Shown: piece after piece, positions 6,606-41,891 of the stretch
Numbering within the stretch: the stretch's first letter is position 1
Layout of the letters: the number at the start of each line of letters is the position of its first letter
Assembly (NCBI GenBank): GCA_903944345.1
Contig: CAJARJ010000001.1
Span: 76,339-118,229 of the forward strand
Source: Candidatus Omnitrophota bacterium
GTDB lineage: Bacteria > Omnitrophota > Gorgyraeia > Zapsychrales > Fredricksoniimonadaceae
DNA length: 41,891 nt
Direction: 5' to 3'
Notes under the pieces: generated by a model
Told to the model about the DNA's origin: nothing
Seen by the model: only the letters and a program-made list of their open reading frames with translations
Database searches by the model: none
Made by a program: the position numbers and the translations under genes

Positions 6606-7880
6606 CTAAAAAGAATAGCGCGAACGAAAGTAAACCGAACGGTTGCGCTGCATCTGGCCGAATTCGGTGTAAAGATCATCGCCCCAGGGAATATTCAGAC
6701 CCGTGACCAGACTCCAGCGATCACTCGCCTGCCAGGAAAGCGCAGGCCGCAGGTAACCATCCCTATCCGAGGGAGACCAGAAATTAAACAACGATGCCGT
6801 GACGGTCTGACGACGGAACTGTTTGGTCAGGCGCTGGGTCAAAAGATGACGCCGCTGGTCAAAACACAAATCACCGGGCAATAAAGCGGCGGAATAGGCC
6901 GTGTAATCCAGCCGCTGTTCGTAAAGATACTGAACCCCGGCCCGAAAATCGTTTCCCAAATCCCGGTCATAACCCGCCATGGCCTTGAGCGCCGAATTCT
7001 CTACCAAACGATTATCCCCGCGGTCATCTTCCCGGGACAAATGCCAGCCGGCCTCAAGGTTGGCGATACCCGCCAGAAAAGGTCCGCGCATACTGGCTCC
7101 ATAGGCATCCAGGCGGCGATAATAAAGCTGGCGGTTTAGCTCATTCTTGTAACTGGAAGGGTTGCGGTCAAACCCGCGAAAAAAATATAGAGCCGCTTCG
7201 TTGCTGCCCAGAGTACGATAAGCACGCAAGGCGTATTCCAGATTGGAAAGCTGGTCGGGAGGCTCCACCAGATGCCGATCCACAGCCCGGCCACTTATCT
7301 GGCGGCTGAAGCTGTCATAGAACGAAAGCCGGTCGCCTTCCGGTGTCAGATTGGCCCGGGGACGCATGAGCACAACGTCCGTATTAAACCATTCCTGAAA
7401 AAAGGAGGTTTTAATCGCATCCGAAGGCTGTTTGAGGTATTCATCATCCCGTCCGCTGAAAAACGAAATATAATCCTTGGGAAAAAGATCGTTAATAAAC
7501 AGCAGATCTCCCGTGCCCCAGGTCAGAACCTGGCGCCCGGCCTTGATATCCGCAAAGGGCACCGGAGAAAAAGCGGCATTGGCCTCGCGCAAGGCAAAAC
7601 CGGTCTTGCCGGCAAAGTAACCGTCGGCAAAGAAGTCCCCCTTGAAATTGAGCATCGTCTGCTTTTGCGCCCAAAAGTTCTCCCCGTCGACGTAATGAAC
7701 CGCCTTGAGCTGCAGCCGGCTCTCCAGGAGCACCAGATCGTCCCGCTTGGTGTCCACCCCCTGCCAGCGTGCGCCGGCAGCAGATTCGGCAAAACCGTTG
7801 AGCGTCGTACCCGCGCCTGCCGAGCCAGCCCATAAAAGGAGAGCCAGGCAGAAAACGCCGAGAATGCCTACTTTACCCAT
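6606..7880 (-). CDS. Outer-membrane beta-barrel protein of an RND export cluster
   Basis: The 424-residue product has a signal peptide (cut near residue 23, after the AGSAGA region) and then repeated amphipathic strands. The segment AGRQVLTWGTGDLLFINDLF, about residues 116-135, resembles the GRQ-x-x-x-WG signature of DUF1302-like and alginate-export-like porins. It ends YFRSRYSF with a terminal phenylalanine. Its start lies 13 bases inside the preceding LolA-like gene, which sits directly behind the RND exporter, so the three are almost certainly co-translated. I infer that it is the outer-membrane terminus of the same transport route. The family label is tentative, and the substrate is unknown. 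Confidence 0.72.
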   Translation of the reverse strand: MGKVGILGVFCLALLLWAGSAGAGTTLNGFAESAAGARWQGVDTKRDDLVLLESRLQLKAVHYVDGENFWAQKQTMLNFKGDFFADGYFAGKTGFALREANAAFSPVPFADIKAGRQVLTWGTGDLLFINDLFPKDYISFFSGRDDEYLKQPSDAIKTSFFQEWFNTDVVLMRPRANLTPEGDRLSFYDSFSRQISGRAVDRHLVEPPDQLSNLEYALRAYRTLGSNEAALYFFRGFDRNPSSYKNELNRQLYYRRLDAYGASMRGPFLAGIANLEAGWHLSREDDRGDNRLVENSALKAMAGYDRDLGNDFRAGVQYLYEQRLDYTAYSAALLPGDLCFDQRRHLLTQRLTKQFRRQTVTASLFNFWSPSDRDGYLRPALSWQASDRWSLVTGLNIPWGDDLYTEFGQMQRNRSVYFRSRYSF

Positions 7881-8665
7881 TGAACCGGCGGCCTCCGTAA
7901 ATAACGTTCTTCAAAAATATCATCCTCAAGCCCGACATCGTAACGGACATCCTGGAACTCCAGCAAAGTAGATCCGCCCTGACGCAGGTCTTCGGCCTGC
8001 GAGCGAATGACCGTCGGATGACCCTGAACATCCCGCCGCTCTTGCACTGTGATACGACGCAAGAGGGTTCCGGCGGCATCATGGTATTCGGCCTTGACCG
8101 GCATAAACGTGGCTTTATCGATCCAGACATGGTACCAGGCAAACTCCACTCCCTTTTTCTCCAGCGGAATATTCTTGACCAGATATGTATCGCCCTCGGC
8201 GGAAACCAGTTCATGGCTGTCAGCCTCCAGGGCACGGCCGGAAATATCCTCATAAACAAAATGGGAGCCGACAAACTGGGAACGCTTGTCAGTCGCTGAA
8301 ATCCGGCGCACCAGATCCATGGCCGGCAGATAAAGCCAGCGGTCATCATCACGCCCGGAATGCTTCCAGACCATAAACACGGTACGGGCCACATCCGCAG
8401 GCCTGGTGAAATACACAAAAAATTTCTGCTCCCCGCCTTCTTCGACATCCTTGCGCAGGATGCGCATCTCGCGCTGGCGCTGACGGCCACGCGCATCGGT
8501 GATCGTCATACGGACATCGGCTATGCCGTCAGAACCGGCATAAAACGCCGCGCGGCTGGCGCGGGCCACGATATCTTCCACCGGCACTGTGTCGGCGGCA
8601 CAAGCCGGAAACGCTGCTATTCCCGCAAAGGAAACAAGCACCGCCAATAGAACGGACAAATTCAT
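7868..8665 (-). CDS. LolA-like outer-membrane lipoprotein-sorting protein
   Basis: This is a 265-residue periplasmic protein with a signal peptide cut near residue 23 (ACA/AD). The mature part matches the LolA-like family often annotated as outer membrane lipoprotein-sorting protein: DDDRWLYLPAMDLVRRIS, then KRSQFVGSHFVYEDISGR in mid-protein, and a C-terminal LLEFQDVRYDVGLEDDIF. These half-barrel proteins bind hydrophobic molecules. In many genomes this version travels with an MMPL/RND exporter rather than with LolCDE, as it does here. It starts 54 bases after the exporter, with AAAGGAG six bases before ATG, and overlaps the barrel gene by 13 bases. It is probably a periplasmic carrier for whatever lipid the RND pump moves, not the classical LolA partner of the lolCD genes in this window. 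Confidence 0.85.
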   Translation of the reverse strand: MNLSVLLAVLVSFAGIAAFPACAADTVPVEDIVARASRAAFYAGSDGIADVRMTITDARGRQRQREMRILRKDVEEGGEQKFFVYFTRPADVARTVFMVWKHSGRDDDRWLYLPAMDLVRRISATDKRSQFVGSHFVYEDISGRALEADSHELVSAEGDTYLVKNIPLEKKGVEFAWYHVWIDKATFMPVKAEYHDAAGTLLRRITVQERRDVQGHPTVIRSQAEDLRQGGSTLLEFQDVRYDVGLEDDIFEERYLRRPPVQWVK

Positions 8666-8719
8666 AAACAGCTCCTTTTTTTACGCGCTTCGTTTCTCTC
8701 GAAGACAAAGAACAAGAAA

Positions 8720-11227
8720 CTATTTGCGGCAAGCCGTCTTGCCGGAAACCAGGTGACACAAAAACGCCCCGGCGACAATAACCGCCAGCGTAACATAAAC
8801 CGTCGGCTTCCAGGAAGCCAGATCATAACCCCACATCACATACGCCACCGACAACCCGGCAGCCACCGCAGTCAAAAGACAATGTCCGCGATTGCCCGCA
8901 ATGCCACCGGGAGCCGGAGCCTCCAGTAAAACCGGATACCAGCTGAACAATGCCGGAATAATCAGCAGGGTTGCCGCAGCCGACACGGCCATAATAGCAA
9001 ACATGAAAAAACCGACCGTCTGATACGGCACCAGCGGGGCGACCATGAGCGGCAGAAAGCCGATGGCCACCACCAGAGCATTGCGCACAATAGCCCGTCC
9101 GGGCCCGGCAAACATCTTTTCCGCAATAGAATTCCAGTCTGCATGCTCCTTGCGCAGTTCCATGGAGCGCTGAATAAAATGAATGGCAAAATCAACAGAA
9201 AGCCCCAGAGTCAGCGCCGAAAGCACCGCCACGGGCATATCATAATCCTTGCCAACAAAACCCAGCAGGGCGTAAATAAAAAGGATGGTGACCGTAAGCG
9301 GAACCATGGACACCAAAGCCGTAACCGGGGAACGAAACAGATACAACATCATAAAAAACACAATCACAAAACTGCCGATGAAATTCTTGATCATGCCCAT
9401 AACCATATTGTCCTGCCAAACGACATTCAGATAGGTCTTGCCCGCCCAGCGGGCCTGAAGCGGCGCCGGAGGAGGATTGTCCAGCAAATAACGGGCAGTA
9501 AAAGCCGTAACCCGGGCCATATCCTTGTTATCTCCGCTTTTTAGCTGTAACCAGATATTTAACCGGTCATAGTCCGTGGTCACCACATGCCAGAGATCGT
9601 CGGGCTTGTGGGAATTTTCAAAAGACAAAAGTGACTGCGCCACCGCTTCACGCGTATCAGGAATACGGGCATGGGTCTTGTCGCCTCCCATCAGCTCGTC
9701 GTAAACCTTGACCACCAGATCGGTCAGAGTCATGGTCTTTCCCACCAGAGCACTGTCCAGCAAAGCCGACTGAAGCCCTTGAATATAACGCAGCATCTGC
9801 GGTTCCTTGAAAAGTTCGCCGCCCTTGTTTTCCGCCTCCAGAACCAGATACGCCTCATAAGTTCCGGCAAAATGCTGATTTAACACCTTGTCAGCGACAC
9901 GGATCGGATGGCCGGCATGAAACCAGCGCACCGGATTGTCGTTAACCTGTATCCGGGTCAGTCCATAAACCGAAAGGGCCATCAGCAAAGCCGTCAACAC
10001 AAGCACCAGACGGTAACGCTTCAACACCAGGGCGCGGAAAACCCCCAGCACGCGATCCATCCATCCGGAAGAGGGCTCTTCAGAAGGCCGGGCTCCAAAA
10101 TCGGCAAACGTTTTTTCGTTCATCAGCATGATATAGGCCGGAATAAAAACCATGGTCAGAAGCCAGGCAAGCGCAATACCGATCGCCACAAAAACCCCGA
10201 AAACCTGGACGGGAGGAATGGGCGAGAACGACAACGAGAAAAACCCGGCAACAGAGGTGAGGCTGGTAAAAAGCATGGGCACAAACAATTCGCCCATCAC
10301 ATGCATGATCGCCTTGCGGCGATCCTTGAAAAGACGGTATTTGTCGGAAAATTCACTAAGGATATGCACGGAATCAAGAATTGTAATCGGCATAAGAAAG
10401 ATCGGAATCATGGAACTCATGATATGCACCGGAAAACCGAATCCGATCATAAGCCCCATGGTGATAATGACCGTGGCCACCGCCATGATCATCGGGGCAG
10501 CAATAAGCGCCAGCGAACGAAAAAACAGCCACATCAACACAAAAATGACCGCTCCGGCCAACGGGGCGGAAACAGCCATCTGCCGAAACATTTCGACTCC
10601 GAACTGGTCTTCGGCCACCGGCAGTCCGGTAATATGGTATTGTTCCGGGCCGGTTTCCTGCGCGACAATCCGGCGGACATCCTGGGCAATCCGGTAACTG
10701 AGCGATTTCTTGAGCAGCGGAATGTAAACAGAAACCATACGGCCGTCATCGGAAACAATCGAGCCGCGAAACATGGGATGATCCCTGGCTTCTGCCAGAA
10801 TAACCAGAGCTTCCTCGTCAGTCGCAGGCGGCTCCTGCATCAACCATTCAAAACGGACAGCCCCTGCACCGTCTTGTACCACATTGTCCCTGGTACTTAA
10901 CGAAAGCAGTTCGTAAGCATCAACGCCCTCGATCTCTTTGATCCGGGCGGTGATCCGATGAAGCCTGGCCAGGGTTTCGGCATTGAAAACTCCCTGCGGG
11001 TGAGCCTCGTTAACCACGCCGAGCACCAGCATATTGTTCAAAGCAAAATCGCTGCGCATCTGGCGGTCAAACACCCGCACGGAAGAATTGGCAGGCAGCA
11101 TGTTTTCCGGATCGGTGTCAACACTCATACGAGGCGCCTGAGACAAGGCCAAAACAACCGCCAACGCCAGGGCCACCATAACCTGACGAGGATGACTAAC
11201 CGCGAATTCCAGCCATTTGTGCATCAT
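8720..11227 (-). CDS. RND/MMPL-family exporter
   Basis: The product is an 835-residue inner-membrane exporter with two repeats: a single helix (about 12-30), a large periplasmic loop, then a five-helix bundle; the same again from about 410; and two extra C-terminal helices in the last 60 residues. Acidic residues in the central helices (ILDSVHIL in repeat one, LSVDFAIHF in repeat two) match the proton-relay positions of MMPL, Patched and HpnN-type transporters. The length fits lipid-exporting RND members rather than drug pumps, which exceed 1000 residues. I chose ATG 11227 because it forms an ATGA overlap with the DUF134 gene and has AAGGAG five bases upstream; a longer frame would need a TTG at 11260. 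It is followed by the LolA-like and barrel genes. The substrate is unknown, and hopanoid, sterol-like or other apolar lipids are guesses. Confidence 0.88.
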   Translation of the reverse strand: MMHKWLEFAVSHPRQVMVALALAVVLALSQAPRMSVDTDPENMLPANSSVRVFDRQMRSDFALNNMLVLGVVNEAHPQGVFNAETLARLHRITARIKEIEGVDAYELLSLSTRDNVVQDGAGAVRFEWLMQEPPATDEEALVILAEARDHPMFRGSIVSDDGRMVSVYIPLLKKSLSYRIAQDVRRIVAQETGPEQYHITGLPVAEDQFGVEMFRQMAVSAPLAGAVIFVLMWLFFRSLALIAAPMIMAVATVIITMGLMIGFGFPVHIMSSMIPIFLMPITILDSVHILSEFSDKYRLFKDRRKAIMHVMGELFVPMLFTSLTSVAGFFSLSFSPIPPVQVFGVFVAIGIALAWLLTMVFIPAYIMLMNEKTFADFGARPSEEPSSGWMDRVLGVFRALVLKRYRLVLVLTALLMALSVYGLTRIQVNDNPVRWFHAGHPIRVADKVLNQHFAGTYEAYLVLEAENKGGELFKEPQMLRYIQGLQSALLDSALVGKTMTLTDLVVKVYDELMGGDKTHARIPDTREAVAQSLLSFENSHKPDDLWHVVTTDYDRLNIWLQLKSGDNKDMARVTAFTARYLLDNPPPAPLQARWAGKTYLNVVWQDNMVMGMIKNFIGSFVIVFFMMLYLFRSPVTALVSMVPLTVTILFIYALLGFVGKDYDMPVAVLSALTLGLSVDFAIHFIQRSMELRKEHADWNSIAEKMFAGPGRAIVRNALVVAIGFLPLMVAPLVPYQTVGFFMFAIMAVSAAATLLIIPALFSWYPVLLEAPAPGGIAGNRGHCLLTAVAAGLSVAYVMWGYDLASWKPTVYVTLAVIVAGAFLCHLVSGKTACRK

Positions 11228-11529
11228 CGCAACTCCTTTTTTTCTGAAAAGCGTGGACAATTAAGGCGCAACGCTTTCCCACGAATCACGGCCTCGGCTG
11301 TCTTTTGCCGGGCACGCTTGACAATATTGCTGAAGGTGGCGCGGGAAATCCCCATCTTGAGTGCGGCGTCTTCCTGATATTCTCCGTCGAGATCAGCCAG
11401 CCTGAGCGCTTCGATCTCGTCAACCTCAAGGACAACTTCATCCGGCGCCTGGCCGGAAAACTTCTCGGGACGGAAATAGGCATTCTTTAATTCCAGACAA
11501 ATCGTACGTTCCTTACATGGTCTGACCAT
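11224..11529 (-). CDS. DUF134 family helix-turn-helix protein
   Basis: This is a 101-residue DUF134 (UPF0251) protein, a small DNA-binding family with a sigma-70 region 4-like helix-turn-helix. Family marks are YFRP near residue 18, DEIEALRLADLDGEYQEDAA, and the recognition part MGISRATFSNIVKRARQK (about 59-76). It is first in a set with the RND exporter (four-base overlap), the LolA-like protein and the barrel, so it may regulate that export unit. That role is inference; no operator is identified. AAGGGGG lies nine bases before its ATG, and a sigma70-like promoter sits at 11564-11591. Three cysteines, two near the N-terminus and one near the end, could bind a metal, but this is speculative. 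Confidence 0.88.
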   Translation of the reverse strand: MVRPCKERTICLELKNAYFRPEKFSGQAPDEVVLEVDEIEALRLADLDGEYQEDAALKMGISRATFSNIVKRARQKTAEAVIRGKALRLNCPRFSEKKELR

Positions 11530-11563
11530 GACAGCAAGCCCCCTTGGTTATCGGCATATGTCA

Positions 11564-11591
11564 ATAATACCTGCGAAAAGAAAATTGTCAA
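11564..11591 (-). promoter_or_regulatory. Predicted sigma70-type promoter for the DUF134-RND cluster
   Basis: The minus strand reads TTGACA (11586-11591), a 16-base spacer and TATTAT (11564-11569), giving an expected start near 11557 and a leader of about 28 bases. It lies in the 85-bp gap between alr and the DUF134 gene, which separates the RND export unit from the long upstream gene run. Confidence 0.55.
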
Positions 11592-11614
11592 GCGGGAAGA
11601 TGACGGCCGGGAGC

Positions 11615-40327: not shown

Positions 40328-41891
40328 TCAGACGCCTGAACGCATAAGATCTGCCAGAACAGGAATATTCTGCGATGTAACCGGAACAATCTGATGAATA
40401 ACCGGAGACAAACCATCAATATTAACCATAGCCGCATCCTGCATGGACACCGGTAATGGCATGCCTGCTCCATCAACCTTGACATTAATTGTAAGATACT
40501 TGTCACTCATTGTGATACCACCAACGCTGTCCTGATCATTATCTGTTCGCACCTTATACTCTATTTGCTCTCTAACGGCCTGGGCGGTCTGTCTGGCCGC
40601 CTGAAGAACGCTTTCCGCCTCCTGCAACAAACGCTCATTGGCCATATAATTATTCATAATATTAGGCTCAACCGAACGCTGCCCAATGGTGGCATTCATA
40701 CCTGTAACCGTTCGTTGCAAACGATTCATTTCTTTACGAATACGCGCAAGGCTCTTGCCGCGATTTGCCCCGGCACGCTCTGTATCATACTTGCCTTGCA
40801 ATACACTCAAAGCCTGCTCCACAACTCTGCGACTGTCGACGAGACCCGCCGTCCGCTCTAATCCTGACGTATTCATCTGCTCAAAACGAACAGCCAAGCC
40901 ATCTATAGCGTTCTTCTGGCCTTCAACCTGGCGTGTCTTTTTTAATTTCTCCTGCATTTGTTCTGTCGCGGTTACAATGTTCTGTAAACGCGAACGCTGT
41001 AAACGCAAAGCCTCCATCAGTTCGCCGGCATTCAAAACCTGACCCAGCTCTTCCTGCCCCCAAGCCACTGCTGCACGAAACTGTTCCAGCTGTCGGCTGG
41101 AAACATCCTGCGCCTTAACGCGCTCCGTGGACAGATTCTTGATCCGCGCAAGATTCCCGGCAATCTGCTGCTTCAATGCTGCAGACTGATTTTCCAAAGA
41201 CTCCACCTCAGCATCCGGATCCGCCGCGAGTGCCGCGGATACATTACGCTCTACCATTCTCTGGCGTTGCTCCAGTGCCCTATTCTCAGCCCTGATCACC
41301 TGCTCTCTTGCCTCCCAGGTCGCCGCCTCTTCCCGAACAGATTGCTCCAAAACCGCTTGCGTTATATCCGGGGTCCGGTCCGTCAGAATACGTAAACTAT
41401 TCTCCATTGTGTCAATACGCGCTATCTGATCGTTGACAGACTTGATCTGCAACTGCAGATCATTTCCAACCACAGAAGCAGAAGAAATAACTTCCTGCGC
41501 TCTTCTGCCATGATCAGCAATACTGCTGGACATAAGATCAATTCGCGGAGCTTGCACCGGCACAGGCTGCATGATCTCGGGCAAACTAAACTCCGGACGC
41601 TGAATAGCCGTTTTCTGGGGTGCCACTGCGCGAGCACTCCCCCCCAGTCGTCTCAAATCCTCAGGAGTAACAAACTGATCTTCAGGAATCCTCGAAAAAT
41701 TGTCTGCCAAAACCTCTTCCACCACTGGAGCATCTGCTACTGCAGGAGCATCTGCTACTGCAGGAGCATCCACTACCACAGGAGCATCCACTACCACAGG
41801 AGCATCCACTACCACAGGAGCATCCACTACCACAGGAGCATCCACTACCACAGGAGCATCCACTACCACAGGAGCATCCACTACCACAGGA
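40328..41891 (-). CDS. Partial coiled-coil protein with VVVDAP tandem repeats
   Basis: The frame is open to the right window edge, so the real start lies outside and only the C-terminal 520 residues or so are visible. From the edge inward: seven VVVDAP hexapeptides and two AVADAP variants, a linker with DNFSRIPEDQF, then long helices rich in Gln, Glu, Ala and Arg (about 120-430 of the visible part) that look like coiled coils, and a last section with YLTINVKVDGAGMPLPVSM. I do not recognise the family and see no enzyme motif. It is probably structural, surface-attached or filament-forming, but that is inference. A shared terminator at 40251-40282 ends it. The repeat may be a linker like those in large surface proteins. 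Confidence 0.75.
   Translation of the reverse strand, partial: PVVVDAPVVVDAPVVVDAPVVVDAPVVVDAPVVVDAPVVVDAPAVADAPAVADAPVVEEVLADNFSRIPEDQFVTPEDLRRLGGSARAVAPQKTAIQRPEFSLPEIMQPVPVQAPRIDLMSSSIADHGRRAQEVISSASVVGNDLQLQIKSVNDQIARIDTMENSLRILTDRTPDITQAVLEQSVREEAATWEAREQVIRAENRALEQRQRMVERNVSAALAADPDAEVESLENQSAALKQQIAGNLARIKNLSTERVKAQDVSSRQLEQFRAAVAWGQEELGQVLNAGELMEALRLQRSRLQNIVTATEQMQEKLKKTRQVEGQKNAIDGLAVRFEQMNTSGLERTAGLVDSRRVVEQALSVLQGKYDTERAGANRGKSLARIRKEMNRLQRTVTGMNATIGQRSVEPNIMNNYMANERLLQEAESVLQAARQTAQAVREQIEYKVRTDNDQDSVGGITMSDKYLTINVKVDGAGMPLPVSMQDAAMVNIDGLSPVIHQIVPVTSQNIPVLADLMRSGV
41727..41891 (-). repeat. 18-bp in-frame tandem repeat (VVVDAP array)
   Basis: Nine 18-base units run from 41727 to 41888, and three bases of a tenth are visible. 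The plus-strand unit is GGAGCATCCACTACCACA in the seven outer copies (41763-41888), all identical; two inner copies (41727-41762) read GGAGCATCTGCTACTGCA. They encode VVVDAP and AVADAP in the coiled-coil gene. Identical copies imply recent slippage or unequal crossing-over. The total number is unknown because the array leaves the window. Confidence 0.97.

Follow-up and report, generated by a model that had tools for sequence, protein, structure and literature searches.

The window discussed here is a stretch of 41,891 nucleotides from an Omnitrophota genome of 2.18 Mb in 22 contigs, and it includes a compact unit of four genes, all read from the minus strand. The first gene encodes a helix-turn-helix regulator of the DUF134 (UPF0251) family (11224-11529; PF02001 69.4 bits, cut-off 27), with two cysteines, Cys5 and Cys11, near its N-terminus. 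It is followed by an RND inner-membrane pump of the MMPL, HAE3-like kind (8720-11227), a LolA-like periplasmic carrier whose N-terminus resembles a signal peptide (7868-8665), and a DUF1302-related outer-membrane beta-barrel whose C-terminal residue is Phe (6606-7880). The regulator and pump genes share a four-base overlap (ATGA), a gap of 54 bases (8666-8719) separates the pump from the carrier, and the carrier and barrel genes overlap by 13 bases. The first-pass annotation had given exactly these reading frames, positions and spacings. It had also placed a single promoter ahead of the unit, and a strong promoter-like site (minus strand, 11564-11591) does lie directly upstream of the DUF134 gene. 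This site consists of TTGACA (11591-11586), 16 bases and TATTAT (11569-11564), matches at 11 of 12 positions, and is the best of seven such sites in 7.2 kb. Elsewhere in the window, one reading frame (466-1836) appears by eye to fuse a Maf-like with an M48-type peptidase-like protein, and another near the window edge (40328-41887) begins with a tandem VVVDAPVVVDAP repeat.

The assignment of the pump to the inner-membrane RND proteins is borne out by its match to the MMPL family (PF03176, 136 bits). Its best NCBIfam match is TIGR00921, at 208 bits below the cut-off of 352, and by sequence the pump appears nearest to the HAE3 group. Pfam searches of the unit found neither a membrane fusion protein nor a TolC-type channel, the partners of HAE1 tripartite efflux. 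The C-terminus of the pump is drawn out into an extension with conserved cysteines (GHCLLTA...AFLCHLVSGKTACRK; 8720-8920), which is common to six other loci (L033-L037 and L039) and missing from several other pumps of this kind. Small YgaP-like membrane proteins with two helices adjoin the transport genes in L036, L038, L045, L118 and L121.

A periplasmic protein that binds hydrophobic ligands had been proposed for the third gene, and structure prediction fits this well. The carrier matches PF17131 (183 bits), scores 21.5 bits with the DUF1329 model, just under its cut-off, and gives an AlphaFold model of high confidence (pLDDT 91). The predicted fold resembles those of the DUF1329 protein 4z48, its nearest structure, and of LolA3 from Porphyromonas gingivalis (TM 0.76-0.89; 0.80/0.89 with 26% identity for LolA3 entry 9tp6). 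The sheet of LolA3 forms a hydrophobic groove in the published structure (PDB 9tp6; PMC13103446). The last gene encodes the expected outer-membrane end, modelled as a porin-like beta-barrel (pLDDT 93). By itself the barrel protein has no Pfam match, a sequence search of the PDB returned nothing, and a fold search gave general porin-type matches only, with TM below 0.6. Among members of its family, 51 of 63 match PF06980 (DUF1302), weakly, with E values up to 1 and 7e-7 at best. The barrel is thus a DUF1302 relative, and not the undescribed partner for which it was first taken.

The three transport genes form a conserved triad, found in many phyla and in a fixed order. In a sample of 384 Omnitrophota genomes the barrel is present in 73, most genomes being without it, and among 72 barrel copies, including those cut by contig ends, a LolA-like gene lies upstream in 68 and an RND gene in 64. 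Because of these proportions, the arrangement is far beyond chance, and the co-occurrence that comparative genomics was expected to reveal does extend over the RND, LolA-like and barrel families. A scan with the barrel alignment brought in at least 550 relatives, and the 80 retained from it belong to Omnitrophota, 'Deltaproteobacteria', Hydrogenedentota, Planctomycetota, Alphaproteobacteria, Verrucomicrobiota and others. Orthologues of the pump are about 37-63% identical to it, the relatives being mostly of the same order, and the barrel remains 52-57% identical to that of the window even where the pump drops to about 40%. Two loci deserve separate mention. In L039 (G039:C40:195500-210500) the genes beside the triad are of the same kinds as those in the window (pyrE- and Maf-like, and comF-lptF-lptG), yet the pump comes from a different clade and the DUF134 protein from the other group of regulators described below. 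L047 (G034:C2:62500-77500) shows a diverged form of the unit, in which a ThiF-like gene is flanked by a LolA-like gene and the gene of a distant pump (24% identity), and the last gene differs.

The four-gene unit of the first-pass annotation stands as far as its transport genes are concerned; its first gene is interchangeable, DUF134 replacing an ArsR-type regulator in a minority of loci. In 58 copies the pump is preceded by 600 bases or more, and the models used here assign the first gene to the ArsR type in 39 of these, to DUF134 in four and to neither in 15. A fifth case of DUF134 in this slot, in genome G002, is split between contigs. ArsR-type genes occur in 60 of 110 triad loci, and those in the slot are divided among several subfamilies; many of these proteins have a pair of cysteines, the position of which varies. 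In a tree of the RND proteins the window falls inside a fully supported clade of loci that otherwise have ArsR or an unassigned first gene, and the DUF134 cases require two changes from ArsR. In a tree of the DUF134 proteins those from the slot form two groups, the starred branches being compatible with one origin. The usual first gene is of the ArsR type, and DUF134 took its place probably twice. The three-part pump belongs to a widespread type, here with DUF134 instead of its customary switch.

DUF134 had been put forward as the dedicated regulator of the unit, with the region 11530-11614 as the place to test its binding, and a predicted operator does lie inside this region. It is a 20-bp palindrome, TTATTGACATATGCCGATAA (minus strand, 11548-11567), that overlaps the -10 of the promoter. 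All five DUF134 genes found in the slot share the promoter and the palindrome TTATTRRCATATGYYARTAA over its -10, with one or two deviating positions in the right half at some loci. Another form of the palindrome, TTATGAGTANNTACTCATAA, is found at 27 of 29 other Omnitrophota DUF134 genes (shuffle p <= 0.04). When the genome of the window was searched with the CATATG consensus at up to three mismatches, four sites were found and none with a reversed control; three of the four carry the same promoter. The fourth (C2:131324, three mismatches) lies inside a reading frame, has no promoter and was taken as a chance match.

The same search can be extended to other genomes. A selection of 15 genomes included four with a DUF134 gene in the slot, and each of these has the site at that gene; nine of the 11 comparison genomes are without it, and in one of the two that have it the site is at another DUF134 gene. 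Over the 384 Omnitrophota genomes, at up to two mismatches, 48 have a site against three for the reversed control; with uniform base composition, roughly one site would be expected overall. These counts include the loci from which the consensus had been built. Sites in genomes G051 and G206, inside long reading frames and without CATATG, were again put down to chance. In 30 of the 38 loci inspected around such sites a DUF134 gene starts close by, most often at a distance of 10 or 16 bases. Outside the Omnitrophota a similar palindrome was found near the start of four of five DUF134 genes, from Planctomycetota, Verrucomicrobiota, Alphaproteobacteria and, in a weaker form, Desulfonema. No operator-like palindrome was seen in seven loci without a detected DUF134 gene (L035, L036, L199, L200, L223, L073 and L075, the last three with the upstream region cut by a contig end). 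The predicted operator is well supported by these comparisons, and we infer that DUF134 is the protein that binds it.

The window genome has a second DUF134 gene (G000:C18:117785-118066, locus L001). Since it has a palindrome of its own, TTATGAACAATCGTTCATAA, the sites recognised by the two paralogues may differ. In another genome (L317; G016:C21:1-6500) a DUF134 gene with the palindrome stands directly before the genes of a channel of the TolC type and a pump of the AcrB type, an RND system of another kind.

The two further copies of the promoter-linked palindrome in the window genome point to a small set of co-controlled genes. Both lie on contig C15. One precedes a gene for an SBF/ACR3-like permease and one for a CoA-disulfide reductase that includes a rhodanese domain, and the other precedes a gene for a C_GCAxxG_C_C redox protein. 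Relatives of these enzymes recur beside the triad itself in other genomes. In L034/L055 and L041 the pump gene is immediately preceded by one for a CoA-disulfide reductase, and in L111 a gene of the same family adjoins the triad; these enzymes are 59-61% identical to that of the window genome. A C_GCAxxG gene is the neighbour of ArsR in L036, separates DUF134 from the pump in L046 and immediately precedes the pump in L223. The run of genes in L223 goes on to a methyltransferase and a NifX-like gene, both of kinds also found in DUF134 operons. In genomes of the same family without the triad, DUF134 operons include close relatives of these genes as well as a peroxiredoxin, and one such DUF134 gene is followed by a pump of the TolC/AcrB type. 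Among the 110 triad loci the recurring neighbours include DsrE (10 loci), SQR-like and related flavoproteins (13), thioredoxin (6), rubrerythrins, FprA and a group of methyltransferases (21). A small set of 20 control loci from the sampled genomes showed none of these, and the loci compared are related by descent. Because the neighbours are mixed, with methyltransferases, ArsP, SQR and rubrerythrin among them, they do not fix a common inducer. The window operon itself includes no sulfur or redox enzyme, and the apparent redox and sulfur theme comes from other genomes and from the two sites in trans. Gene content and order, the predicted operator and its overlap with the promoter, the regulon sites and the replacement of the regulator all emerge from comparison of sequences.

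The reading that we prefer, and consider rather probable, is that of an envelope exporter of hydrophobic compounds that is induced by redox or sulfur stress and governed by an autoregulating DUF134 repressor. Driven by ion-motive force, the pump would set free a hydrophobic or amphiphilic substrate on the outer side of the inner membrane, the carrier would shield it through the periplasm, and the barrel would take it in at the outer membrane. DUF134, sitting on the palindrome over the -10 of its own promoter, would silence all four genes until it was released by a redox signal, from thiols, sulfur or another source, with the N-terminal cysteines as a plausible sensor. The same repressor would control at least the two operons described above, those of the permease and CoA-disulfide reductase/rhodanese and of the C_GCAxxG protein, and the exporter would therefore be part of a small redox/sulfur-stress regulon. 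Repression rather than activation, the inducer, the substrate and the direction of export are what we infer here. A broader proposal is decidedly tentative: DUF134 proteins might be thiol-based autorepressors across phyla (palindrome TTAT-N-RRYA-NN-TRYY-N-ATAA) and the triad might serve generally for export under sulfur or redox stress, with hydrophobic sulfur species or oxidised lipids as examples of what it carries. Its control would then have been handed over repeatedly from one regulator with a cysteine pair to another, unrelated one.

Several other explanations have to be weighed against this stress-induced exporter. The strongest rival is a role in detoxification, in which the triad would export lipophilic forms of arsenic, antimony or similar elements, hence its ArsR, ArsM-like, ArsP and ACR3-like partners. 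The frequency of ArsR-type genes is in keeping with this, as are the methyltransferases, some of them closest to ArsM models, ArsP_1 in five loci, and the SBF/ACR3-like permease under the same predicted operator. Yet that permease reaches only 97 bits with the ACR3 model (cut-off 283), the ArsM models also stay below their cut-offs, the ArsR proteins are of several subfamilies with cysteines in differing places, and genes for sulfur and oxygen stress are at least equally frequent, so that we regard a metalloid substrate as unlikely. It is quite unlikely that the triad provides the outer membrane with one of the cell's own lipids, be it a hopanoid, a sterol, an isoprenoid or a phospholipid. Such a role would suit the RND sterol-sensing/MMPL matches and the LolA-like groove, and LolA2/LolB2 have been proposed to transport flexirubin in Flavobacterium. 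Hopanoid transport in particular is unlikely, and the resemblance to sterol and hopanoid systems suggested by the first-pass annotation did not survive comparison. Against the models for the sterol pump BstA (NF045600) and the hopanoid pump HpnN (NF052374) the scores are 9.6 and 27 bits, far under cut-offs of 1400 and 1100, and BstB belongs to a different family (PF12974), of which the unit has no member. Squalene-hopene cyclase occurs in nine of the 384 genomes, none of which has the barrel, and was not found in the window genome. Moreover, no lipid biosynthesis gene was recognised in the recurring neighbour clusters, and the regulators are of a stress type.

The direction of transport could also be the reverse, with the triad taking up external hydrophobic compounds. 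Precedent comes from the DUF1302 and DUF1329 proteins that act with PP_2018/PP_2019 in Pseudomonas putida on Tween 20, where fitness data and co-folding link PP_0765, PP_0766, PP_2018 and PP_2019. Against uptake, loss of the related AmeABCD system raises the accumulation of Nile Red, which fits export, and export would better suit stress-type regulators; an importer is accordingly very unlikely. Finally, the carrier might be the plain lipoprotein carrier of the genome, standing beside the pump by chance. The window does encode LolC/E and LolD, and canonical LolA (PF03548) was found neither in the carrier nor elsewhere in the genome, an absence that is uninformative because the model exceeds its cut-off in just three of 55 relatives. 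Most sampled Omnitrophota do without the barrel, the order of the carrier gene with the pump is conserved, and the predicted fold is far closer to LolA3 and DUF1329 (TM about 0.8) than to true LolA (about 0.4), all of which makes this explanation hard to credit.

What is likely to be new here is the predicted DUF134 operator and the small set of redox genes under its apparent control. DUF134/UPF0251 is an uncharacterised regulator family of bacteria and archaea, and the available passages of the literature that mention it describe neither a DNA site nor a signal. A predicted operator in several phyla and a three-operon regulon in one genome make its role testable. Redox partners that accompany the triad in cis under ArsR recur in trans under DUF134, which reduces the range of substrates and inducers to be considered. 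The triad is a type of transporter common in uncultured phyla, and the closest characterised example that we found concerns monoterpenes.

Known systems resemble the unit in different parts. Aryl polyene exporters, which combine MMPL and LolA proteins, are one further type that came into consideration. BstABC and HpnN (PMC10942540) share with it an RND pump for hydrophobic substrates, but the pumps are of other subfamilies, the periplasmic protein is another one, and the systems are linked to sterol or hopanoid synthesis. The ArsR repressors that respond to sulfane sulfur, SqrR, SoxR and sHdrR, count RND pumps among their likely targets (PMC12423496); there too a small regulator adjoins a transporter operon, whereas the regulator of the window is DUF134, from another family. 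LolA3 shares the fold of the carrier, and its interaction with LolB is reported to be only weak, but the paper does not mention RND partners (PMC13103446). In P. putida, PP_0765, PP_0766, PP_2018 and PP_2019 (PMC10866462) likewise join a DUF1302 barrel, a DUF1329 LolA-like protein and an efflux-type transporter, but they are encoded at two loci, include an extra periplasmic protein and are needed for growth on Tween 20.

The only relative tested by deletion is AmeABCD of Castellaniella defragrans, described as an exporter of apolar compounds and concerned with monoterpenes, in which AmeA is a DUF1302 protein, AmeB a DUF1329 protein of the LolA superfamily and AmeD an HAE3 pump (PMC6394551). 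On the side of the window the differences are a PF17131 carrier in place of a full DUF1329 protein, a regulator of its own in the operon, a location outside any catabolic island, and another phylum. AmeC (COG4447), the second periplasmic protein of the Castellaniella cassette, has no counterpart in the window triad, no fourth transport gene lies between or beside its genes, and no such recurring neighbour cluster was recognised. What the two have in common is an RND pump (of the HAE3 type in AmeABCD and nearest to that group in the window), a periplasmic protein of the LolA superfamily and a DUF1302 or DUF1302-related outer-membrane protein in one cassette. Because the carrier is LolA/DUF1329-like, the barrel DUF1302-related and the pump nearest to HAE3, the triad may work as AmeABCD does, and by this likeness it would be a system of the AmeABCD kind, minus AmeC, for the efflux of apolar compounds.
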